From the NCBI RefSeq assembly GCF_000420665.1, contig NZ_ATVJ01000001.1, positions 2,117,588-2,181,587 of the forward strand: a stretch of DNA of 64,000 nucleotides, in the 5' to 3' direction. The notes beneath the pieces are model-generated. The model did not search any database, was not told the origin of the DNA, and saw nothing but the letters and a program-made list of their open reading frames with translations. How positions within the stretch are numbered: the stretch's first letter is position 1; the number at the start of each line of letters is the position of its first letter. Origin of the DNA: Ponticaulis koreensis DSM 19734 (lineage in GTDB: Bacteria > Pseudomonadota > Alphaproteobacteria > Caulobacterales > Hyphomonadaceae). The translations under genes were made by a program, and so were the position numbers. Below are positions 18,454 through 31,377 of this stretch, in pieces.

Positions 18454-18727
18454 TGTAATCCTCCCGCTATGCGCCCACGCTCCCGTCTTTTCGCGAAAGT
18501 GTTGTAGTCGCCTATATTCAATTGCTGACAGAAGGCGGGACAAATTTCCAGAGGGTGGGAGCAAAAAACCGTCAATTTATACTGTTTTTGTAATCGTGTT
18601 CAAAAAGCTTGAGCCGGACGCGTGCAATTTATACAACGTAAAAAAGCAAAACAGCGATCGCCATTAAAAGGCGACACGAATTGATCGGTCCCATGACGCT
18701 CGGGATTGATCGGCGAGGACGAAATTG
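18454..18727. promoter_or_regulatory. Divergent promoter region with two pairs of direct repeats
   Basis: This 274-base spacer separates the hydrolase operon and the quinoprotein gene. CAATTTATAC occurs at 18573-18582 and 18625-18634. ATTGATCGG occurs at 18680-18688 and 18705-18713. A small hairpin TCGCC-ATTAAAA-GGCGA is at 18658-18674. No gene is seen. The repeats are candidate activator or repressor sites. Confidence 0.45.
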
Positions 18728-20926
18728 ATGATTGAAAAACGCGACCTGTTTGTCGGCGTGGCAGCCATGGCTTGTATGGCAATTCAAGGCTGCTCACAGA
18801 CTGAACATACCGCAACTCCCGTCGGCGCGGATACGCCTGCTGCGCAGGTGACCCGACAGATCGGAACGGATGATCTTGTAAATGCGGCCAGCAATAACAG
18901 CGAGTGGCTCTCCTATGGTCGCACATGGTCTGAGCAACGCTACAGCCCGCTTGACCAGGTAAATCGCGAAACGGTTGGTGATCTCCAGCTTGCATGGTTC
19001 GCCGACCTCGATACAGCCCGGGGGCAGGAAGCTACGCCGCTGGTCATCGATGGTAAGATGTACATCACAACCGCCTGGAGCCTTGTGAAAGCGTATGACG
19101 CGGTGACTGGCGAGCTACTCTGGGAGTACGACCCTGAAGTTCCTGGTGAAACAGGAGTTAAGCCGTGCTGCGACGTGGTGAACCGAGGTCTGGCGGCGTG
19201 GGGTGAGCATCTCTATTTCGGATCGCTGGATGGTCGTCTGATTGCGCTGGATCGCGAAACCGGTGAAGAAGTCTGGACGACCGATACCATTGTGGACCAC
19301 GAACTGCCTTATACGATTACAGGGGCGCCGCGCGCCGTGAACGGTATGATCATGATCGGTAACGGTGGCGCCGATATGGGGCGGGTTCGTGGTTACATGT
19401 CAGCTTATGATGCTGAAACTGGCGAGCTTATGTGGCGGTTCTACACCGTTCCGGACAATCCTGCCGAGGGTGAGCAACCTGAGTATCTTGAGGCGGCGGC
19501 TGAAACATGGACTGGCGAATGGTGGGAAGTTGGTGGTGGTGGTACCGTCTGGGATTCTATGGCCTATGACCCTGACCTTGATTTGCTTTATATCGGCGTA
19601 GGTAATGGTGCGCCGTGGAACCAGCAATACCGCTCCCCGGAAGGGGGGGATAACCTTTACCTTTCTTCGATTGTCGCGATCAGAGCGTCTACAGGCGAGT
19701 ATGCATGGCATTTCCAGACGACACCCGGTGAAACCTGGGATTTCACTGCAACACAGCACATCATTCTTGCTGAACTCGAGATAGACGGTGAAATGCGTAG
19801 CGTCCTGATGCAGGCGCCGAAGAATGGTTTCTTTTACGTTCTGGATCGTGAAACGGGTGAGTTCCTGTCTGGAAATAACTATACTAATGTAACGTGGGCG
19901 CTGGGTCTTGATCCTGAAACAGGACGTCCTGTGGAAAATCCGCGCGCTCGCTATCTCGACGGGCCTGCGCTGGTTTTCCCGAGCCCATTCGGCGGCCATA
20001 ACTGGCATCCGATGGCGTTCAGCCAGGACGAAGAGCTGGTCTATATTCCAGTCCATAACCTACCAACTCCGTTCGATAGCCCTGATGAGTGGGATTTCGC
20101 TGGTGCCAGCTTCAACACCGCAGTTGGGCAACGTGGACGCGGTGCCGTCGTTGGGAGTGGCGATGATCCTATGCAACGTCCAGCACCGGGTACCAGAACG
20201 CTTGAAACAACATCAACGGTGGAAGATTATCAGCCTGTAGAGCCACGATCGCGAGCAATGGGATCGCTTGTTGCATGGGATCCTGCTGAGCAGGAAGAGC
20301 GCTGGCGCGTCGAATACCCAATGATGTGGAATGGTGGCGTGCTTGCAACTGGCGGTGGGCTGGTGTTCCAAGGCACATCTACTGGTGATTTCCGCGCTTA
20401 TGATGCTGCGGATGGTACGCAGCTCTGGTCTCAGCCAATCCAGACCGGTGCGATTGCCGCACCTATGACGTTCGAGCAGGGCGGCACGCAGTATGTTGCA
20501 ATCCTTGCTGGTTGGGGCGGTGTGTTCGGTCTGAACGCAGGGCTCGTTGAAAACCGTAGCCGTCTATTCGTCTTCTCGCTGGAAGGCGAGGCAGAAATGC
20601 CAGAGGCTTATCCTCTGTTTGAAGGGGTTTTGGACCCGCCAGCGCTTACCGGTGATGAGGAAACGATTGCTCTTGGCGGTGAATATTACGGACGTTTCTG
20701 TGCGACCTGTCATGGTGGCGGCGTCATTCCGGATCTGCGTTATTCCGCGGCGCTGGAACGGGAAGAGACTTTCATGACCATCGTTCGCGATGGAGCGCTC
20801 GAAGCGAATGGAATGGTCAGCTTTGAAGATGTCATCGGCGAAGAAGCGATATCTGCTGTTCGCCAATACCTGATTTCGCGGGCCCATCAGGAGAAGGCGC
20901 GTCTCGACGCTGCTACTTCCGAATAG
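18728..20926 (+). CDS. PQQ-dependent quinohemoprotein alcohol dehydrogenase (type II), lipoprotein
   Basis: 732 residues with a predicted lipoprotein signal (ACMAIQGC). The eight-bladed propeller domain starts about residue 60 with RYSPLDQVNRETVGDLQLAW. The adjacent-cysteine disulfide that contacts PQQ is in KPCCDVVNRG (about residue 154). The catalytic aspartate is in GETWDFTATQH, and tryptophan-docking repeats such as AYDAVTGELLWEY recur. A C-terminal cytochrome c domain carries RFCATCHGGG (CATCH). Such enzymes oxidise alcohols in the periplasm and pass electrons to a cytochrome. It is divergent from two exported hydrolases, suggesting oxidation of an alcohol set free by ester cleavage. PQQ synthesis genes are not in the window. 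Confidence 0.93.
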   Translation: MIEKRDLFVGVAAMACMAIQGCSQTEHTATPVGADTPAAQVTRQIGTDDLVNAASNNSEWLSYGRTWSEQRYSPLDQVNRETVGDLQLAWFADLDTARGQEATPLVIDGKMYITTAWSLVKAYDAVTGELLWEYDPEVPGETGVKPCCDVVNRGLAAWGEHLYFGSLDGRLIALDRETGEEVWTTDTIVDHELPYTITGAPRAVNGMIMIGNGGADMGRVRGYMSAYDAETGELMWRFYTVPDNPAEGEQPEYLEAAAETWTGEWWEVGGGGTVWDSMAYDPDLDLLYIGVGNGAPWNQQYRSPEGGDNLYLSSIVAIRASTGEYAWHFQTTPGETWDFTATQHIILAELEIDGEMRSVLMQAPKNGFFYVLDRETGEFLSGNNYTNVTWALGLDPETGRPVENPRARYLDGPALVFPSPFGGHNWHPMAFSQDEELVYIPVHNLPTPFDSPDEWDFAGASFNTAVGQRGRGAVVGSGDDPMQRPAPGTRTLETTSTVEDYQPVEPRSRAMGSLVAWDPAEQEERWRVEYPMMWNGGVLATGGGLVFQGTSTGDFRAYDAADGTQLWSQPIQTGAIAAPMTFEQGGTQYVAILAGWGGVFGLNAGLVENRSRLFVFSLEGEAEMPEAYPLFEGVLDPPALTGDEETIALGGEYYGRFCATCHGGGVIPDLRYSAALEREETFMTIVRDGALEANGMVSFEDVIGEEAISAVRQYLISRAHQEKARLDAATSE

Positions 20927-20948: not shown

Positions 20949-20980
20949 AAAAGGGGAGAGCTTAAGCTCTCCCCTTTTTT
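20949..20980. terminator. Bidirectional Rho-independent terminator
   Basis: A perfect 15-bp inverted repeat (left arm AAAAGGGGAGAGCTT) with A and T runs on both flanks lies between the convergent quinoprotein and PEPC-like genes. Confidence 0.92.
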
Positions 20981-23787
20981 TATCCGTAAGCGAGATGTGC
21001 GTGACTGATTGCACGGCTGATCTGATGAATCAGTTTCTGAATATCCATGAGCGGATCGAGGAATTCTTTGTGCAGTGCGGTGTAGTCCGAGGTCGTCAAA
21101 TCTCCGCGCTCTTCGCGAGGCTCCTTCAGATCAGACAATTCCACGATATCGAGGGCTGATTTCGGGAAGAGTTTTCGCAGCAAGCCAACCGCTTCTTCAA
21201 TGCGCATTTCAACAATCAGATGCTGTACATCATCAATGTCAAAGCCGTGTCGCTCCGAAATCGTCGGCAGGCTGCCCGCAATTTCAAGAGCACGCATCAT
21301 GGCTCCCTGACGCATTGCATGCAGCGCGTGGATCGGCAGGCGTGCTTCGTGCCGATAAGAGACTGACGGAGCGCTCTTCAGGCGCGAGATCAACTGGTCG
21401 AAACGGCCTAGGTCGATTGAGAGATGATCGGCGCAGCGGTTCATCGCTGACGAAATACGCTGGGAGCGGACCAGACGGTACATCATAGTACGCGCGGCTT
21501 TGCGGTCTGCATCGCCGCTGCGTTTCGTGCAGGCGACCCAGAAGCTTGGAGAGTAGACAGCTGCATAAGACCGGAGCGCCGGGATGGAGGTGCGGACACG
21601 GCCGAACAGAGCCAGATCGACCAGAGCGCGCAGGCGCGGAGAATCGTCGATCAGCTCGACGAGTTCATCAATGTCTCGTTCCAATGCGGAGCCGATACCG
21701 CAAGCGGTGTTGGCGAGCGCGCCCAGCTGTTGAAGCGTGGCATTGTGAGAAATCGCGCGAAGCGAGCGCGGGCCGGCAGGGCCTTTGGCGCGGCGTTTCG
21801 GGCGCGATCCTGCGTCGAGCAGGAAGCCGCCTGCGAATTCTCCCAACAGGACAGCATAGTCGGGATCATCAAACAGCGTCTCGTGCCATAGACGAAGCGC
21901 GCGATAGAAGTCCCACACAAGGCTGGAGCGTTGGTAGAACGGATCGCTGTCGTCATGCTCCTGCGTGAATACGCCCTCGCGCACAAAAGCGAGATAGGCC
22001 GAATCCGACAATGGCTGGTTTGCGAAGTGGATATACCCGTCGCCGCCCTGAAAGCTCACCTCATTGCGGAGAGGCACGCCGAGACGGGCGCAAAGTGATG
22101 GCGTGTGTGCGGGAAGAACGTGGTTCAGACGAGCTTTGAAGTCCCCCGGATAGGCGCCGCGCCCTGCGGACTCGCCATGCGTGTTGAAGAATAGGAGTGC
22201 AATACCCGGCATCTGTTCAGCCAACGCGGACGCGATGTGTGATTGGATTCGTTCGATTGCGATGTCTGCTGCAACCTGCCCGATAAAACGACCTGCGTCT
22301 GAGAAACCGAGCTGGATGGATAGCTGGCCGCGCGTGCGGACATATTCCTGAAACTCCGGCACTTTCAAAAGGCGCGCTACGAAGCGGCCACCATTTTCAA
22401 GCGCTTCAGGTGTTTCGAACAGAGGCGAGATATCCAGTTGCCCCTCAACGCCGTATTGGCGCGCAAGATAGAGGGCGCCCAGCACTGTCGCAGGGTTCTC
22501 ACTCTCTGCGATGAGGAAACGGATCGGCGTATCAGCATCGATATGCTTGCTAATCTGGGCGCAGAGCATGAACTGGCGGCGGGCTGTGGACTGCTCAAGG
22601 AACAGGTCGCCGAAGTTGATTCTGGCTGGAACGGTGGCACGAAGCTTGTCAGCCAGTGTGTCGAGCGCGACTTGACCGAGATCATTGTCTTCCGTGAGGA
22701 AGCCAAGGTCGCGCCGGATTACTGACTGGATTTGGGCAGCATTGATGCGGAGATGAATGCGCGCCGTACCGAAACCGAGGATTTCCATCTGCCGAGACAG
22801 CTGAAGCAGGCGCAGTGCCGTGTCGTCGTCTTCGCCGTTCATGAGGGCTGTAACGCGATCTGCCAGATCGCGAATGCTGACGAGGTTTTTGTCATCGTTC
22901 TCGGTCAGCGTATTTGCAGCCTCGACCATGAGCTCTGCCTTAGACAGATCGCCGAAGAAGAGTTCAGACTGTTTTGCTGCGAGCGCCTGTGCGGTTTCAA
23001 GTTCCGCAATCAGGGCTTCAATCGCAGCTGCATTTTTAGCGTTTTGAACAAGGTCTTGCAGCGCGCTTGCATAGCGGCCAATCTGTTCTGACTTTTCTTT
23101 CAGGCGATAGGCAAGGCTTGTCCACCAATGAATATCGCTTCGACCATCAAGGTCGTAACCGACCCATGAGGCAAGCGTCGGTGCGACAGGGCGAAGGCTG
23201 CGCCACTCATTCGGATAGGCTGTGCGGGCTGTCTCCAGAACCGCTTTCAGATAGCTGCTGACGGATGCCTGCGCGTTTGCAATCGCGTTCTGCGCTTCCT
23301 CATGCTCCTGCTGGAGCGTGATGCCCTGAGCTTCGTCCGCTTGTGCGGGGGCTGTACTCTCTGCCGCGTCTGATACGGCGAGTTCAGCAAGCCTCTGACG
23401 CTCGCTGAGCGGGTTTGCGAAGGTCGGGTGAGCAGTAAAAACAATGCCGCCCACGGGCGTTTCAACGCAGTTCTTGAAAGCGTCGAGCCCTTCAGCGGCT
23501 TTCTGTGAGAGCTTTTCGTTAATCATCTCCCACGGAGATTCCGGCAAGTGGAGTTCGTGCTGCATTGCGATTAAGGCCGCGCGTTCACTGAACAGCTCGT
23601 CGGTAATGTCTTGCACGGGCGCGCTGAGCGCATCGGCGCTCAATTCGCCTTTTGACAGAGCGAAAAAGTAATCCTGGGCCAGTCTGAAAACAGAATTGGT
23701 CTGCGGGTCGCGTTCGATATCGCGCGCATAGAATTTCAGACGCTCATAGATCTCATCTTTTTTCAGGGGAAGGTCAGCGTTTTCCAT
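20980..23787 (-). CDS. Divergent phosphoenolpyruvate carboxylase-like protein
   Basis: 935 residues, close to the length of bacterial PEP carboxylase (about 880-930), which makes oxaloacetate from PEP and bicarbonate. The catalytic-histidine motif is recognisable (VFTAHPT, His120), as are an arginine in ARIHLR (Arg347) and GSRPKRR (660-666). However, the usual YSDSxKD loop reads GFSDAGRF (494-501), with Arg in place of Lys. The usual FHGRGGxxGRGG loop reads FNTHGESAGRGAYP (534-547), with Asn and His at the conserved His and Arg. The residue after AHPT is Phe instead of Glu/Gln. The gene starts 32 bases after the KDPG aldolase gene and may end the uronate operon. Fold assignment is good; PEPC activity is doubtful. 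Confidence 0.75.
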   Translation of the reverse strand: MENADLPLKKDEIYERLKFYARDIERDPQTNSVFRLAQDYFFALSKGELSADALSAPVQDITDELFSERAALIAMQHELHLPESPWEMINEKLSQKAAEGLDAFKNCVETPVGGIVFTAHPTFANPLSERQRLAELAVSDAAESTAPAQADEAQGITLQQEHEEAQNAIANAQASVSSYLKAVLETARTAYPNEWRSLRPVAPTLASWVGYDLDGRSDIHWWTSLAYRLKEKSEQIGRYASALQDLVQNAKNAAAIEALIAELETAQALAAKQSELFFGDLSKAELMVEAANTLTENDDKNLVSIRDLADRVTALMNGEDDDTALRLLQLSRQMEILGFGTARIHLRINAAQIQSVIRRDLGFLTEDNDLGQVALDTLADKLRATVPARINFGDLFLEQSTARRQFMLCAQISKHIDADTPIRFLIAESENPATVLGALYLARQYGVEGQLDISPLFETPEALENGGRFVARLLKVPEFQEYVRTRGQLSIQLGFSDAGRFIGQVAADIAIERIQSHIASALAEQMPGIALLFFNTHGESAGRGAYPGDFKARLNHVLPAHTPSLCARLGVPLRNEVSFQGGDGYIHFANQPLSDSAYLAFVREGVFTQEHDDSDPFYQRSSLVWDFYRALRLWHETLFDDPDYAVLLGEFAGGFLLDAGSRPKRRAKGPAGPRSLRAISHNATLQQLGALANTACGIGSALERDIDELVELIDDSPRLRALVDLALFGRVRTSIPALRSYAAVYSPSFWVACTKRSGDADRKAARTMMYRLVRSQRISSAMNRCADHLSIDLGRFDQLISRLKSAPSVSYRHEARLPIHALHAMRQGAMMRALEIAGSLPTISERHGFDIDDVQHLIVEMRIEEAVGLLRKLFPKSALDIVELSDLKEPREERGDLTTSDYTALHKEFLDPLMDIQKLIHQISRAISHAHLAYG

Positions 23788-23819
23788 GATGATGAGCCTT
23801 GAAATTTGTGTTGTCGATG

Positions 23820-24470
23820 TCAGCCCGGTCGAAGCGATTTCACGAGATCTGATGCTTCCTGAGCCAGTTCTGTAATTCGGGCCCAGTTGCCGGCCTGAAT
23901 ATCTGCTGATGTTGCAAGCCAGGACCCACCTGCTGCCGCGACATTTGGCAGTTTCAGATAGGATGGCAGTTTCTCGAAAGAGACACCGCCCGTTGGCATG
24001 AAGCTTATGTTTGGCAGCGGCGCAGACAATGCTCTGAGCGTAGAAGCGCCGCCATAAGGCTCAGCTGGGAAGAATTTCACCACATCAAACCCGTGATCGT
24101 AGAGAGAAAGGGCTTCTGTGGGCGTAGCTATACCCGGGACAACGAGGCCGGGGAAAGCTGCAAGTTCGGATAGCAGAAATGCAGGAGTGGCTGGCGTTAC
24201 CAGAAATTGGGCGCCGTATTTCAGCGCTGAGCCGACATCTGATTCGCACGTGATTGTGCCTGCGCCGACGAGAACATCGAGGCCGGAATTGGAAATCTCT
24301 TTGATAGCGTCCAGCGCACAAGCCGTGCGTAGCGTGACTTCGAGTACTCGCAAGCCGCCATCTGCCAGAGCTTTCGCGACAGGAACAGCGTCTTCCGTGC
24401 GTTCGATTGTCAGGACCGGAACGACGCCTGCAGCGCGAAGCTGGCGCTTTTGTGCATTCACATCAGCCAT
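23820..24470 (-). CDS. eda: KDPG aldolase (2-dehydro-3-deoxyphosphogluconate / 4-hydroxy-2-oxoglutarate aldolase)
   Basis: 216 residues, a TIM-barrel class I aldolase that splits KDPG into pyruvate and glyceraldehyde 3-phosphate. Visible signatures are VVPVLTIERTEDAVPVAKALADGG, whose key points are the Glu-containing first loop and VPVAKAL; LEVTLRT with its conserved Glu and Arg; VGAGTI; and the Schiff-base lysine in FDVVKFFPAE. SFMPTGGVSFE forms the phosphate site. It closes the pathway from KDG made by UxaA and KduD and phosphorylated by KdgK. It follows the esterase gene by 23 bases on the same strand, consistent with one operon. Confidence 0.95.
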   Translation of the reverse strand: MADVNAQKRQLRAAGVVPVLTIERTEDAVPVAKALADGGLRVLEVTLRTACALDAIKEISNSGLDVLVGAGTITCESDVGSALKYGAQFLVTPATPAFLLSELAAFPGLVVPGIATPTEALSLYDHGFDVVKFFPAEPYGGASTLRALSAPLPNISFMPTGGVSFEKLPSYLKLPNVAAAGGSWLATSADIQAGNWARITELAQEASDLVKSLRPG

Positions 24471-24493: not shown

Positions 24494-25528
24494 TTATCGG
24501 GGAGTGGGCGGAAGACCATTTTCTGCCGCCCAGTTCATGAGGAGGCCGGGCCAGTCTTCCAATGGTGTGTTCTCAACGCCGCGCATGCCGAAGCCATGGC
24601 CGCCATGTTCGAAAATATGGAGGACCGCCGGCACATCTGCGTCGCGATACGCGTTCATAAGCTCCATGGAATTTTCCATTACGACAGAGGTGTCATCCAG
24701 CGCGTGGAGCAGGAAAAGTGGTGGGCTATCAGGATTTACATTTCGCGTGAGGTCGTAGGCCCGAAGCTGGTCGTCAGCCGGGTTGTCGCCGAGCAGGTTA
24801 TTCTGAGAGCCTGCATGTGTGTGTTCAGATCCCATCAGAACGACCGGATAGACCAAAGCCGTGATATCAGGCCTGGCGGAGAGTTCGTCCAAAGCATCCA
24901 CAGGATCATAGACGGTGTCCGCGAAACGCTGGTTCAGCGAGCCTGCGAGGTGGCCGCCCGCAGAAAAGCCGATGGCCAGAACGTTCGCATCTGAGCCACG
25001 GGTGTTGGTGTTATGGTTGCGCAGGACGCGCATCGCACGCTGGGCATCCTGAAGCGGCGTGTCCGCGCCGGACGGCCAGCCTTGAAACGGTAGCCGATAG
25101 GTCATGACATAAACGTCATAGCCGAACTGGTTGAAATAGCGCGCGCCTTCCCAGCCTTCTTTTTCGATGACAACGCGCTGATAGCCGCCGCCGGGAATGA
25201 GCAGGATGGTATTGCCGGAGAAGTTTTCCGACCTGAAATAGGACACGGTAGGCGCGGTGACATCCAACGCTGCGCGGTCAGGCAGGCCGAATGAATTCTG
25301 GCGTTCCACCATATGTTCAGTCAGGTCGACAGCGTCGCGGCCTGGTGCCTGCTCAGGCCAGATGCTTAGGGTTTCGTCAGGCTGGCGTGTGATGTCGATG
25401 ACAAAGCGGTCAAAGTCGATCCGTTCCGACGTCTCGGCAAACGACACGTCAGGTGTCGCGCAGGCAGCCAGTGACATGGCTGCCGTTCCGAGCATCATGG
25501 ATCGACGTGTGAGCGCCGCCTTCATCAT
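24494..25528 (-). CDS. Alpha/beta hydrolase, acetylesterase-like, with Tat-type lipoprotein signal
   Basis: 344 residues. The N-terminus has twin arginines (TRRSMMLGTAAMSLAAC), indicating folded export by Tat and lipidation. The hydrolase core has ILLIPGGGYQRVV (oxyanion loop), the nucleophile in AIGFSAGGHLAG, an acid in HALDDTSVV and the histidine in EHGGHGFGM, a complete Ser-Asp-His triad. The pattern resembles acetylxylan or feruloyl-type esterases of carbohydrate loci. Within a pectin operon, removal of acetyl groups from galacturonan fragments is the likely job (inference). Its ATG overlaps the stop of dctM. Confidence 0.82.
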   Translation of the reverse strand: MMKAALTRRSMMLGTAAMSLAACATPDVSFAETSERIDFDRFVIDITRQPDETLSIWPEQAPGRDAVDLTEHMVERQNSFGLPDRAALDVTAPTVSYFRSENFSGNTILLIPGGGYQRVVIEKEGWEGARYFNQFGYDVYVMTYRLPFQGWPSGADTPLQDAQRAMRVLRNHNTNTRGSDANVLAIGFSAGGHLAGSLNQRFADTVYDPVDALDELSARPDITALVYPVVLMGSEHTHAGSQNNLLGDNPADDQLRAYDLTRNVNPDSPPLFLLHALDDTSVVMENSMELMNAYRDADVPAVLHIFEHGGHGFGMRGVENTPLEDWPGLLMNWAAENGLPPTPR

Positions 25529-28327: not shown

Positions 28328-29800
28328 TTAAATTCCTGAGCCTCCCCGAAGTGATTTTTGTTCTGTTATTATGATGTCAGTGTAGGCCTGCTTTACCGCG
28401 GCTACAAACTCGTCGTCGTTGCAAAGTGTGCCGTTGAATACCTCGTCCAGCGCGAGGAATGTATTGACATCGTCAGTTTCGTCTTTGGCGATTTTTCCGA
28501 GCGCCAGCAGCTGGTTTGCGAGCGGATCGGTGATCTGCGCTTCGGCGCGGGACATACGCACAATGAACCGCATCCACGCTGCAACTCCGAAGCCGAGCTT
28601 TTCTATGCTGCGGCCAGCTGCGCGATTGGTCTCAATGGTGTTCAGAAGCCGTATCGGAAGCTTTTTCGAGCCATCCCATGCAATCTGCGAAAGCTTATGG
28701 ACGATGGCCGGGTTTGCGAACCGCTCAAGCAGGTCTTCGATATAGTCTTCAAGGTCCATTCCATCTGGTGGAGATAAGGCGGGCATAATCTCGTCGCGCA
28801 TCATGGCGCGAACAAGCGAGCGCAGCTCTGCATTTTCCATCGTTTCGGCGACGGATTGGTGACCATAAGCCAGACCAAGATAGGCGAGGGTTGAGTGCGC
28901 ACCATTCAAAAGCCACAGCTTGGCCTTTTCGTGTCTGGAAACATCGCGCGTCAACAAGACACCTGCATCGGCGAGTTCTTTGATCACCGATGCGCCGGTG
29001 TTCTCAATTACCCATGATGTGAAGGCTTCGCGCTGGATAGGCCACGCATCGCTATAGCCGCATTCCGTCTGAATACGCTGGATAAGCGCGTCGTCTGTTG
29101 CAGGTGTGATTGAGTCGACCATGCTGGACGGGAAGTGGACGTTTGTGCGGATCCAGCTGCTAAGTGATGCATCGATCAGATCAGCAAATCGCAGAACCGC
29201 CGCTTCAAGCTTCTCACCATTGCCGGGAAGGTTGTCACAGGAAAGCACGACCAGTTTTCCAAGGCCGCTTTCGCGACGCAAGGCGAGCCCCTTTGTCAGC
29301 CAGCCAATCGCGCTTACAGGCGTGTCGACCTGCTTCAGGTCGTGCGCAATGTCGGTATGGGTTTCGTCCAGTTCACCTTCACCATTGAGGCAGTAGCCTT
29401 TTTCTGTGACGGTCAGTGTGACAAGCTTCAGATCTTCCGTTGTGAACGGCTCGAATGCGCTCGCATCGTCGCGGAATTTTACGCCTTTAAGAGCGGCGAT
29501 AATTTCGCAGCTGGTTTCGCGGTCGAGTTTGATCAGCGTGTAGAAGCCGTCTTGCGCGTTGAGCTTTTCAGACGTTCCTTTAGAGCGCAGCGCTACTGCG
29601 GTAACGCCCCATTTCGGCTCGTTCGCATTCAGACGGTTATAATAATCCATCTGGTGTGCGCGAAAGAATGCACCGGGGCCAATATGCAGCACCCGCGTTG
29701 GTAGTGCAGACCGGTCGTATGATGGCGGTGTGCAGCTCGTAGCATCAATTTCCGCAAGCATCGCGTCGCCGAGCGGTTTCAGAGCGGTATCGGTGGTCAT
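28328..29800 (-). CDS. Mannitol dehydrogenase-family hexuronate reductase (UxuB-like; tagaturonate or fructuronate reductase)
   Basis: 490 residues, a polyol-specific long-chain dehydrogenase. RVLHIGPGAFFRAHQMDYY forms the NAD-binding opening. LSCDNLPGNGEKLEA and, later, LWLLNGAHSTLAYLGLAYG contain the family catalytic region (K-x-x-x-L-N-G-x-H-S pattern with the active-site lysine in KAKLWLLNG). The sequence style is that of UxuB and mannitol dehydrogenase. The neighbour overlapped by 4 bases is UxaA, altronate dehydratase, and no mannonate dehydratase gene is in the window. By context it would reduce D-tagaturonate to D-altronate, so the symbol is left open. Confidence 0.88.
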   Translation of the reverse strand: MTTDTALKPLGDAMLAEIDATSCTPPSYDRSALPTRVLHIGPGAFFRAHQMDYYNRLNANEPKWGVTAVALRSKGTSEKLNAQDGFYTLIKLDRETSCEIIAALKGVKFRDDASAFEPFTTEDLKLVTLTVTEKGYCLNGEGELDETHTDIAHDLKQVDTPVSAIGWLTKGLALRRESGLGKLVVLSCDNLPGNGEKLEAAVLRFADLIDASLSSWIRTNVHFPSSMVDSITPATDDALIQRIQTECGYSDAWPIQREAFTSWVIENTGASVIKELADAGVLLTRDVSRHEKAKLWLLNGAHSTLAYLGLAYGHQSVAETMENAELRSLVRAMMRDEIMPALSPPDGMDLEDYIEDLLERFANPAIVHKLSQIAWDGSKKLPIRLLNTIETNRAAGRSIEKLGFGVAAWMRFIVRMSRAEAQITDPLANQLLALGKIAKDETDDVNTFLALDEVFNGTLCNDDEFVAAVKQAYTDIIITEQKSLRGGSGI

Positions 29801-31377
29801 AGCGTTACACCTCGTTTCCAGATGGCAATGGAGCGCTCCTGATTGAGCTCGTGGCAGGCCTTTTTGCCGCTCGCTGTTTCGACGATGAGATCAAGGAGCG
29901 CTTCTGCGGCTTCGCTGCGGTCTGGCGAGCGAAGCACCTGTCCGGCATCGAAGTCGATCCATCGCGGTTTGCGCGCGGCGAGGTCTGAGTTTGAAGAAAT
30001 TTTTAGTGTCGGAACAGGGAAGCCAAGCGGCGTGCCTCGACCTGTAGTGAAGAGAATAATGTTCGCGCCCGCGGCGGCCAGAGCCGTGCAGGACACGGCG
30101 TCATTGCCCGGCGATTCAAGCAGAGTGAGGCCAATGGCTTTGTTGCGTTCGCCATAGAGGATGACGTCTCGTACTTCCGCTTTACCGGCCTTCTGCACCG
30201 CGCCGAGCGATTTTTCTTCCAGCGTTGTGATGCCGCCGGCCTTATTTCCCGGCGACGGGTTCTCGTTCACCGGCTCGCCCGCGCGGACGAAATAGTCTTT
30301 GAAGTCGTTTACCAGCGTGCCAATGCGGCCGCGCACAGTCTCATCCGAAGTTCGACGCATGAGGAGGTGTTCAGCGCCGAATATCTCTGGAATTTCGGTG
30401 AGAATGGCGCGGCCATCATTGCTGGTGACGATGTCTGTCATGTCACCAAGGAGAGGGTTGGCTGTAAGGCCGGACAGAGCGTCCGATCCGCCGCATTTCA
30501 GTCCGATGACAAGGTCGGAGAGGTCACACTCTGAGCGCTTGTCTTCGGACATGACGTCGAGGAGCTCGTCTATGGCGTTCTGCGTCTCGTCCACCTCGTC
30601 AAGAACCGATTGAGAGCGAACGATGCGGAGCCTGTTTTCCGGAACACCGTCAAGTTCAGACGCCAGCACGTCGACTTGATTGGTTTCACAGCCGAGCGCC
30701 AGAAGAATCAGGCCGCCTACATTCGGGTGCATAGCCAGTGAGGCCAGAACTTTGCGTGTGCCTTCGAGGTCATCACCCAACTGAGAGCAGCCATGAGGAT
30801 GGGGCAGCGCGATTATGCCGTCCGCGCGTCCATCAATGCGGTCAGAGGCGCGAATAGCGGCCTGCTCAGCGGTGCGGGCAACGCAGCCAACTGTCGGGAT
30901 GATCCAGATTTCGTTGCGTGTGCCGACGCGTCCATCTCCGCGGCGATAGCCCTGGAATGTGCGTGAACGTCTTACGCTGGTTGCATCTGCATTCTCTGCT
31001 TCAACCGCGTAGGTCTCCGCGCCGTTCAGAGTGGAGCTGACATTGTGTGTGTGAACATGCTCGCCTTGAACGATCGCTTGCGAGGCCATGCCGATAGATT
31101 CGCCAAAACGCAGTACCGTCTCGCCTTTTGCGACGGGTGTAACGGCAAATTTGTGAAACGCTGGAACGTCCGAGATAAGTTGAAAGGGGGTATCGCCGAA
31201 ACGGACGGTTTCGCCCGCCTGCATGGCGCGCAGGCATACAGCAACATTGTCCTGCGGTGAAACCTGCAGGACCGAGCGGAGCACTTCGGTTTTGCTACTG
31301 TCGACTAACAACTTCCTGTTCCCGATGACATGCTGCGAACGATAAATTTCGTCGCAATTATTTTGTTCTGTTCGCAT
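29797..31377 (-). CDS. uxaA: Altronate dehydratase
   Basis: Up to 526 residues; the enzyme converts D-altronate to 2-keto-3-deoxygluconate with loss of water. The N-terminal SAF domain holds GEHVHTHNVSS and the larger C-terminal domain starts with GYRRGDGRVGTRNEIWIIP, followed by TVGCVARTAEQ, HPHGCSQLGDD, and GLKCGGSDALSG. These cysteine-containing segments match the iron-dependent UxaA/GarD family. The first ATG (31377) has no ribosome binding site and abuts an operator. An in-frame TTG at 31311, with GGGA 8 bases upstream, would give 504 residues, nearer the family norm. Start choice is therefore uncertain. Confidence 0.92.
   Translation of the reverse strand: MRTEQNNCDEIYRSQHVIGNRKLLVDSSKTEVLRSVLQVSPQDNVAVCLRAMQAGETVRFGDTPFQLISDVPAFHKFAVTPVAKGETVLRFGESIGMASQAIVQGEHVHTHNVSSTLNGAETYAVEAENADATSVRRSRTFQGYRRGDGRVGTRNEIWIIPTVGCVARTAEQAAIRASDRIDGRADGIIALPHPHGCSQLGDDLEGTRKVLASLAMHPNVGGLILLALGCETNQVDVLASELDGVPENRLRIVRSQSVLDEVDETQNAIDELLDVMSEDKRSECDLSDLVIGLKCGGSDALSGLTANPLLGDMTDIVTSNDGRAILTEIPEIFGAEHLLMRRTSDETVRGRIGTLVNDFKDYFVRAGEPVNENPSPGNKAGGITTLEEKSLGAVQKAGKAEVRDVILYGERNKAIGLTLLESPGNDAVSCTALAAAGANIILFTTGRGTPLGFPVPTLKISSNSDLAARKPRWIDFDAGQVLRSPDRSEAAEALLDLIVETASGKKACHELNQERSIAIWKRGVTL

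Follow-up and report, generated by a model that had tools for sequence, protein, structure and literature searches.

We analyzed a stretch of 64,000 nucleotides from Ponticaulis koreensis DSM 19734 (contig NZ_ATVJ01000001.1, positions 2,117,588 to 2,181,587; the whole stretch is called the window below) that carries a gene for a divergent phosphoenolpyruvate (PEP) carboxylase (PEPC). A preliminary description, made from the sequence alone, had placed a PEPC-like open reading frame (ORF) at this position without stating its strand; we recovered this ORF on the minus strand (Table 1). Its product scored 71.8 bits against the Pfam family PEPcase (PF00311), above the gathering cut-off of 22.4, and 77.2 bits against the NCBIfam ppc equivalog (NF000584), below the cut-off of 815.

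The gene is the last of a closely spaced run that also contains genes for an altronate/galactarate-dehydratase-family protein, a fructuronate-reductase-like protein and, upstream of the PEPC-like gene, the esterase at 24494..25528. Three genes inside this uronate run resemble, judged by eye, a tripartite ATP-independent periplasmic (TRAP) transporter. Directly upstream on the same strand lies eda, separated by the gap of 32 nt that had already been reported. The preliminary description had spoken of a uronate operon. The linkage to eda holds. What recurs in distant lineages is a link to this Entner-Doudoroff (ED) aldolase gene and not to the use of uronates itself. A separate promoter between eda and the PEPC-like gene was considered and rejected, as a single weak promoter-like site was found (23789-23817) with 1.2 expected by chance. 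Likewise, the terminator scan found 4 terminator-like sites compared to 4.2 expected in shuffles, and thus gives no statistical support for the site at 20953..20972. The convergent neighbor (window 18725-20926) encodes a member of the pyrroloquinoline quinone (PQQ)-dependent alcohol dehydrogenase family that has a cytochrome domain at its C terminus. Homologues of this protein adjoin the divergent gene at loci L003 and L077 too, and one with 52% identity adjoins the canonical PEPC of L052.

Table 1. Features of the divergent PEPC gene and its surroundings in the window. Window coordinates of motifs were calculated from the residue numbers of the window protein.
Feature	Position	Strand	Remarks
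Divergent PEPC gene	20980..23787	minus	ATG start, 935 aa, intact ORF
TAHPTF loop, residues 118-123	23419..23436	minus	His138 equivalent (H120) kept; E141 is Phe
WVGYDLDGR motif, residues 208-216	23140..23166	minus	replaces canonical WxGGDRDG[NH]
Arg347	22747..22749	minus	E. coli Arg396, kept (alignment)
PLFET, residues 455-459	22411..22425	minus	metal ligand Glu506 equivalent (E458) kept
GFSDAGRF loop, residues 494-501	22285..22308	minus	Asp543 kept (D497); Lys546 to Arg500; Asp547 to Phe501
FNTHGESAGRG loop, residues 534-544	22156..22188	minus	H579N (N535), G580T, R581H (H537), G583E; Arg587 kept (R543)
GSR, residues 660-662	21802..21810	minus	Arg699 equivalent (R662) kept
LRAI, residues 676-679	21751..21762	minus	Arg713 equivalent (R677) kept
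eda, 2-keto-3-deoxy-6-phosphogluconate (KDPG)/2-keto-4-hydroxyglutarate (KHG) aldolase	23820..24470	minus	Pfam Aldolase 194.9 bits; TIGR01182 218.8 bits, cut-off 156
Alpha/beta-hydrolase esterase	24494..25528	minus	best NCBIfam match pectin acetylesterase PaeX, under cut-off
Mannitol-dehydrogenase-family reductase, uronate run	28328..29800	minus	best NCBIfam match fructuronate reductase, under cut-off
Altronate/galactarate dehydratase family protein	29797..31377	minus	profile matches; read as first gene of the uronate run
Hairpin and T-run between convergent genes	20953..20972	none	possible shared terminator, argued solely from position

Active site, fold and phylogeny

Catalytic residues were located in a MAFFT alignment with E. 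coli Ppc (from NC_000913), whose numbering is used throughout and whose reference residues were checked. The residue roles given here, beyond the passages of the mechanism papers cited below, are those that we take from the E. coli literature; in particular, Lys546, His579 and Arg581 presumably lie on the bicarbonate/CO2 and phosphate side of PEPC. The alignment confirmed what had been read by eye before, namely that the histidine of the AHPT motif is kept, that the lysine of YSDSxKD is replaced by arginine, and that the histidine and arginine of FHGRGG are replaced by asparagine and histidine. The C-terminal glycine of PEPC is kept as well. The strings HGRG, SDSxK and SDxxK do not occur anywhere in the window protein; together, alignment and string search rule out an intact catalytic set elsewhere in the protein or an alignment error in the preliminary description. 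As that description also stated, both classic PEPC patterns fail in the window protein. This failure alone is not diagnostic, since the full patterns, in the versions used here, match only 4 and 6 of the 13 canonical proteins. The core strings are diagnostic.

We compared the window protein with its divergent homologues and with the 13 canonical proteins. The replacements K546R, G580T, R581H and G583E were present in 50/50 divergent proteins of the order and, in a larger alignment, in 143/143 divergent homologues, of which 122 had Asn and 21 had Asp at position 579. Lys546, His579 and Arg581 were kept in 13/13 canonical proteins. All 143 divergent homologues kept Arg396, Glu506, Asp543, Arg587, Arg699 and Arg713, and 142 kept His138 (one gap). 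The core string FHGRGG was found in 13/13 canonical and 0/143 divergent proteins, SDSxK in 13/13 and 1/143, and the canonical motif WxGGDRDG[NH] in 13/13 and 0/143. Conversely, a WVGYDxDGRxDI-type motif was found in 138/143 divergent and 0/13 canonical proteins, one of two search patterns overlapping this motif. The larger alignment is biased in that 80 of the 143 homologues are named loci found by two motif patterns that overlap the scored motifs. The other 63 (62 distinct) were not found by motif and comprise the window protein, 49 from the order search and 13 from the class search. All of these carried the four replacements and kept His138, Arg396, Glu506, Asp543, Arg587, Arg699 and Arg713, with Asn (51) or Asp (12) at position 579. 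The 143 homologues represent 127 distinct sequences, which fall into 115 clusters at 90% identity and 48 at 60%. The same replaced residues in all 50 and all 143 divergent proteins are far beyond chance. The ratio of nonsynonymous to synonymous substitution rates (dN/dS) between the window gene and its same-genus homologue L003 was 0.042, indicating purifying selection. With an intact ORF, this dN/dS value and an invariant signature, gene decay was rejected.

The residues of the aspartate-inhibitor site differ in the window protein. On neither of two alignments does this protein have Lys at 773, Arg at 832 or Asn at 881, although the alignments place the last two columns (832 and 881) differently and the first has Arg at 832 in 14/50 homologues. 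Since the three residues are not kept, canonical aspartate inhibition is probably absent.

The fold was predicted to be retained, in agreement with the preliminary description. The AlphaFold (AF2) model of the window protein (mean predicted local distance difference test score, pLDDT, 87.2; predicted template modeling score, pTM, 0.88) matched maize PEPC (6mgi) with Z 30.4 over 771 residues, a complete PEPC fold, and E. coli PEPC (1jqn) with Z 28.8 over 755 residues. The match to the archaeal-type structure 3odm was partial (Z 16.6 over 464 residues). Sequence identity was 17.7% to E. coli Ppc and 16.7-17.9% to the 13 canonical proteins. In a midpoint-rooted tree of 55 proteins, for which the program warned of long branches, the 40 divergent proteins formed one side of a branch with a support of 100 in the Shimodaira-Hasegawa-like approximate likelihood ratio test (SH-aLRT). 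Two PF00311 proteins from small-genome alphaproteobacteria, L141 (L141:1023-4142, 1039 aa) and L142 (L142:855-4298, minus strand, 1147 aa), represent a third, very divergent PEPC-like type that fits neither the divergent nor the canonical clade, and were set apart in the alignments. L141 has a weak match to the archaeal-type family PF14010 (28.8 bits, cut-off 25).

Distribution and gene neighborhoods

A search for a second, canonical ppc, as proposed in the preliminary description, yielded none: the window genome, 3.4 Mb and rated 100% complete, contains one PF00311 match and no second PEPC. There was also no match of either PEP carboxykinase (PEPCK) family, no isocitrate lyase match and no pyruvate carboxylase over the cut-off in this genome. 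Among 200 genomes of the same order, with canonical PEPC called at 590 bits or more, the divergent type was present in 100 and the canonical type in 42, and none carried both. One genome (G100) with a 39-aa PF00311 fragment alone was counted as neither type. ATP-PEPCK was found in 80 and GTP-PEPCK in 56 of these genomes, including two calls that rest on fragments (G195 and G177). Any PEPC was present in 58/64 PEPCK-less genomes (39 divergent, 19 canonical) compared to 84/136 PEPCK-bearing genomes (p = 1.2e-5). When canonical genomes were excluded, the divergent type was found in 39/45 PEPCK-less and 61/113 PEPCK-bearing genomes (Fisher p = 1e-4); when divergent genomes were excluded, the canonical type was found in 19/25 and 23/75 (p = 1.2e-4). 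These tests and the exclusion counts ignore the kinship of the genomes. The two types thus behave alike, and both are commoner where PEPCK is absent.

Pyruvate carboxylase exceeded the cut-off in 11/200 genomes, 9 of which had neither PEPC type. Six of the 200 showed neither PEPC type, nor PEPCK, nor a pyruvate carboxylase match over the cut-off. Isocitrate lyase, counted at 67 bits or more, with weaker matches (mostly ORFs of about 300 aa) counted as other superfamily members, was present in 19 and absent in 20 of the 39 divergent-only genomes. The glyoxylate shunt was among the alternatives rejected.

In a sample of 289 genomes of the class, the divergent type was present in 45, the canonical type in 31 and both in one. 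Six genomes (G209, G245, G308, G342, G361 and G369) with fragments or PF00311 matches fitting neither class were set apart, as was locus L155, where no PEPC ORF was called, before counts were made. In four families (f17, f20, f56 and f99) some genomes carry the divergent and others the canonical type. Within-genus exclusivity was also considered as proof of replacement and rejected, being not significant alone (genus g20, P = 0.18). In 398 genomes of the phylum, 29 had divergent matches of at least 590 bits, all in Alphaproteobacteria, the class of the window genome; the best match outside this class reached 58 bits. Named relatives were likewise alphaproteobacterial, apart from a record titled Candidatus Sulfopaludibacter (L072), whose protein has the same last 400 residues as that of L022, from a genome of the same family as that of the window; L072 is probably a mislabelled or contaminated metagenome-assembled genome. 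Outside the Alphaproteobacteria, we saw a single credible copy, on a Burkholderia plasmid. Carriage by viruses was rejected, as two scans of viral contigs returned no relative. A 2.8-Mb record of Methylobacterium bullatum without annotated genes holds a homologue in two pieces (L169:6001-8568), which may be interrupted.

We then compared gene neighborhoods at 138 divergent loci, which include duplicates; at only 84 of these does the upstream flank reach at least 5 kb. Twelve of the 138 have eda as their immediate upstream neighbor in the same orientation: three Hyphomonadaceae-like loci (L003 and two named Hyphomonadaceae) with gaps of 28-35 nt, eight loci of Sphingomonadales, and one of another family (L143). 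The eight Sphingomonadales loci share the gene order zwf-edd-glk-eda-PEPC, with a 4-nt overlap to eda in four of them by the start calls of this analysis. Representatives of their zwf, edd and eda exceeded the NCBIfam cut-offs and that of glk fell just below (222.1 of 225.45 bits). L109, L116 and L138 have zwf, edd and glk nearby and no eda match. Altogether, 18/138 loci have any of zwf, edd, glk and eda nearby. The view that the eda link is genus-specific, read from 49 loci with mostly about 1.5 kb of flanks, was overturned by named loci with wider flanks.

No neighbor gene was conserved across all divergent loci examined. In Sphingobium, a plasmid copy of the divergent PEPC gene follows two places behind an enolase gene (523.5 bits, cut-off 300). 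The copy on a Phyllobacterium plasmid overlaps two CoA-ligase genes of the sucCD type that adjoin oxalate genes, the ligase scoring 501.9 bits as malate-CoA ligase beta (cut-off 604) and 570.4 bits as succinate-CoA ligase beta (cut-off 370). In the Burkholderia plasmid the divergent gene lies between genes for an RraA-like protein and D-glycerate dehydrogenase. What these plasmid settings share is PEP/glycerate/pyruvate chemistry and not one single pathway.

Proposed function and alternatives

The sequence, its invariance, the predicted fold, the genome distribution and the gene neighborhoods are results of the present analysis, whereas PEPC activity, a division of labor among the active-site residues and co-transcription of the operon are inferred. 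We consider it likely that the window gene encodes an active anaplerotic PEPC of a separate, mainly alphaproteobacterial type with a remodeled bicarbonate/phosphate side, which by way of KDPG aldolase, and hence the ED pathway, is linked to the catabolism of sugars and sugar acids in the window lineage and in Sphingomonadales. This reading accounts for the conserved PEP- and metal-binding site, for the invariance, for a distribution like that of canonical PEPC and for the ED link. The Glu506/Asp543 pair together with Arg396, Arg699 and Arg713 would hold PEP on the metal, as in E. coli. Bicarbonate would attack the phosphate to give carboxyphosphate and pyruvate enolate; His138 and Arg587 would then promote breakdown of carboxyphosphate to CO2, which the enolate captures. 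This order of events is adopted from passages of PMC8100219 and PMC10176493. Lys546, His579 and Arg581 would have been replaced as a set, by Arg on the 546 loop, Asn or Asp at 579, and His-Gly-Glu at 581-583, and this set may take over charge balance and the positioning of bicarbonate/CO2. The oxaloacetate produced would feed the tricarboxylic acid (TCA) cycle. In the window, co-expression with eda would match oxaloacetate supply to ED flux. The ED pathway yields one pyruvate straight from KDPG, while the other triose runs through PEP, so that a PEPC co-expressed with eda would be a sensible valve.

Several observations weigh against this interpretation. His579, which is replaced in the divergent type, is named in a passage of PMC11832675 as one of the residues that matter for activity of E. 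coli PEPC, and the titles and abstract openings of the open PMC papers listed mention no assay of any divergent protein. The genomes cannot be treated as independent, and genus g20 alone (5 divergent and 4 canonical among 16 genomes) gives a zero-overlap P of 0.18. In the class sample the deficit of overlap is modest, with one genome observed where 4.8 would be expected (P = 0.029 one-sided; 0.062 by a two-sided Fisher test). The one overlapping genome, G479 (L156 and L157), carries both a divergent and a canonical-class PEPC; our guess is that the latter (779 bits on PF00311) may be of the serine-cycle kind. Two divergent-type genomes of the order sample possess pyruvate carboxylase as well. 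The 20 divergent-only genomes counted as lacking isocitrate lyase have matches over the cut-off for malic enzyme (20/20) and for crotonyl-CoA carboxylase/reductase (18/20); the window genome, one of these 20, has both. Other C4 routes thus exist, the ethylmalonyl-CoA pathway and malic enzyme being possible ones, and C4 supply does not strictly depend on the divergent PEPC. Furthermore, 120/138 divergent loci lack any of the four ED genes searched, and the Burkholderia neighbors suit a sugar-acid pathway without clear PEP. Apart from this weighing, G479 is useful for telling the roles of the two PEPC types apart.

The PEPC fold might instead serve another reaction, in which the enolate of PEP, of another enol-phosphate or of a 2-keto acid from ED or sugar-acid breakdown meets an acceptor other than bicarbonate/CO2, the invariant changes marking the new acceptor site. 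This would suit the replacement, as an invariant set (Asn or Asp at 579), of the very residues that we place on the bicarbonate/CO2 and phosphate side, and aldolase-family genes adjoin the gene in two unrelated settings, eda and RraA-like. We nevertheless regard it as unlikely, given that the distribution relative to PEPCK is that of canonical PEPC, that His138 and the residues binding PEP and the metal are all conserved, that enolase lies nearby in Sphingobium, and that no neighbor is common to all loci. A different PEP-like or 2-keto acid substrate, also considered in the preliminary description, is conceivable but required by none of the present evidence.

That description had further offered a weak enzyme or a regulatory homologue. 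Neither is supported: the altered site is invariant across a class-wide clade, and the gene follows the same distribution as canonical PEPC. The idea of a poor or relic PEPC, carboxylating PEP slowly and with little metabolic weight, is favored by the change of His579, cited as important in E. coli in the passage of PMC11832675, and by the presence of malic enzyme and crotonyl-CoA carboxylase/reductase in the divergent-only genomes named above. It is very improbable in view of the dN/dS value, the invariance of the altered site over all 48 clusters at 60% identity, the higher frequency of the gene where PEPCK is absent, and the 18 loci beside eda or within ED gene runs. We give the least credence to a catalytically dead, regulatory homologue: the loss of Lys546, His579 and Arg581 in the alignment would be expected of such a protein, but no canonical PEPC partner was found in the window genome, the 100 genomes with the divergent type in the order sample likewise lack one, and the metal ligands and catalytic His and Arg residues are conserved.

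For the active anaplerotic PEPC, a bolder form of the proposal may be imagined, which we hold to be rather doubtful. The clade might be a fifth PEPC type with a carboxylation half-reaction unlike the textbook one, be it by other bicarbonate binding, direct CO2 use or another enolate acceptor, and in much of the Alphaproteobacteria it would convert C3 units, ED-derived in some lineages, to C4 acids. Few carboxylases have been studied as well as canonical PEPC. A clade in which several of its conserved loop residues changed together, and which apparently bears the same physiological burden, offers a natural experiment on the residues that PEPC chemistry requires. The genome patterns suggest that the divergent PEPC does the job of the normal enzyme in many marine and soil bacteria. 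Metabolic models of Alphaproteobacteria are affected, as the divergent type is the commoner one in the class sample (45 compared to 31 of 289 genomes). The NCBIfam ppc equivalog misses the window copy, while Pfam and some records just call the divergent type PEPC. Metabolic engineers, too, might take an interest in an enzyme that lacks the aspartate site.

Comparison with known PEPC types

A 2020 review (PMC8100219) distinguishes four main PEPC types, archaeal-type, bacterial, plant-type and bacterial-type-of-plants, and its passages on them do not describe the divergent group. The divergent clade fits none of the four as characterized there. In public records some members are labelled "phosphoenolpyruvate carboxylase" and one "hypothetical protein", so that the family is already annotated in part; the altered, invariant active site is described in none of the open PMC papers listed, as far as titles and abstract openings go.

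The archaeal-type PepcA (PF14010) shares with the divergent type the proposed reaction and the partial fold match to 3odm. It differs in size, with 55-60 kDa in the passage of PMC8100219 that describes it compared to 935 aa for the window protein, and no PF14010 match of the divergent PEPC was listed at E up to 1, a range in which the filters of HMMER discard most matches beyond about 0.1.

Serine-cycle PEPC, such as Ppc1 of Methylosinus, resembles the divergent type in being alphaproteobacterial and presumably not inhibited by aspartate. However, a passage of PMC3615186 states that Ppc1 and Ppc2 alike retain the catalytic elements, and this description sets Ppc1 apart from the divergent type, in which the canonical catalytic residues are not conserved. 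At the Methyloligella copy, ORFs read by eye revealed no serine-cycle genes beside the divergent PEPC.

Bacterial and plant Ppc (EC 4.1.1.31, PF00311) shares with the divergent type the whole fold, His138, the Glu506/Asp543 pair, Arg396, Arg587, Arg699 and Arg713, and the C-terminal glycine. On the contrary, K546R, H579N/D, G580T, R581H and G583E set the divergent type apart, together with E141F in the window protein. WVGYDxDGR takes the place of the canonical WxGGDRDGN, and the window protein has other residues at the aspartate site.

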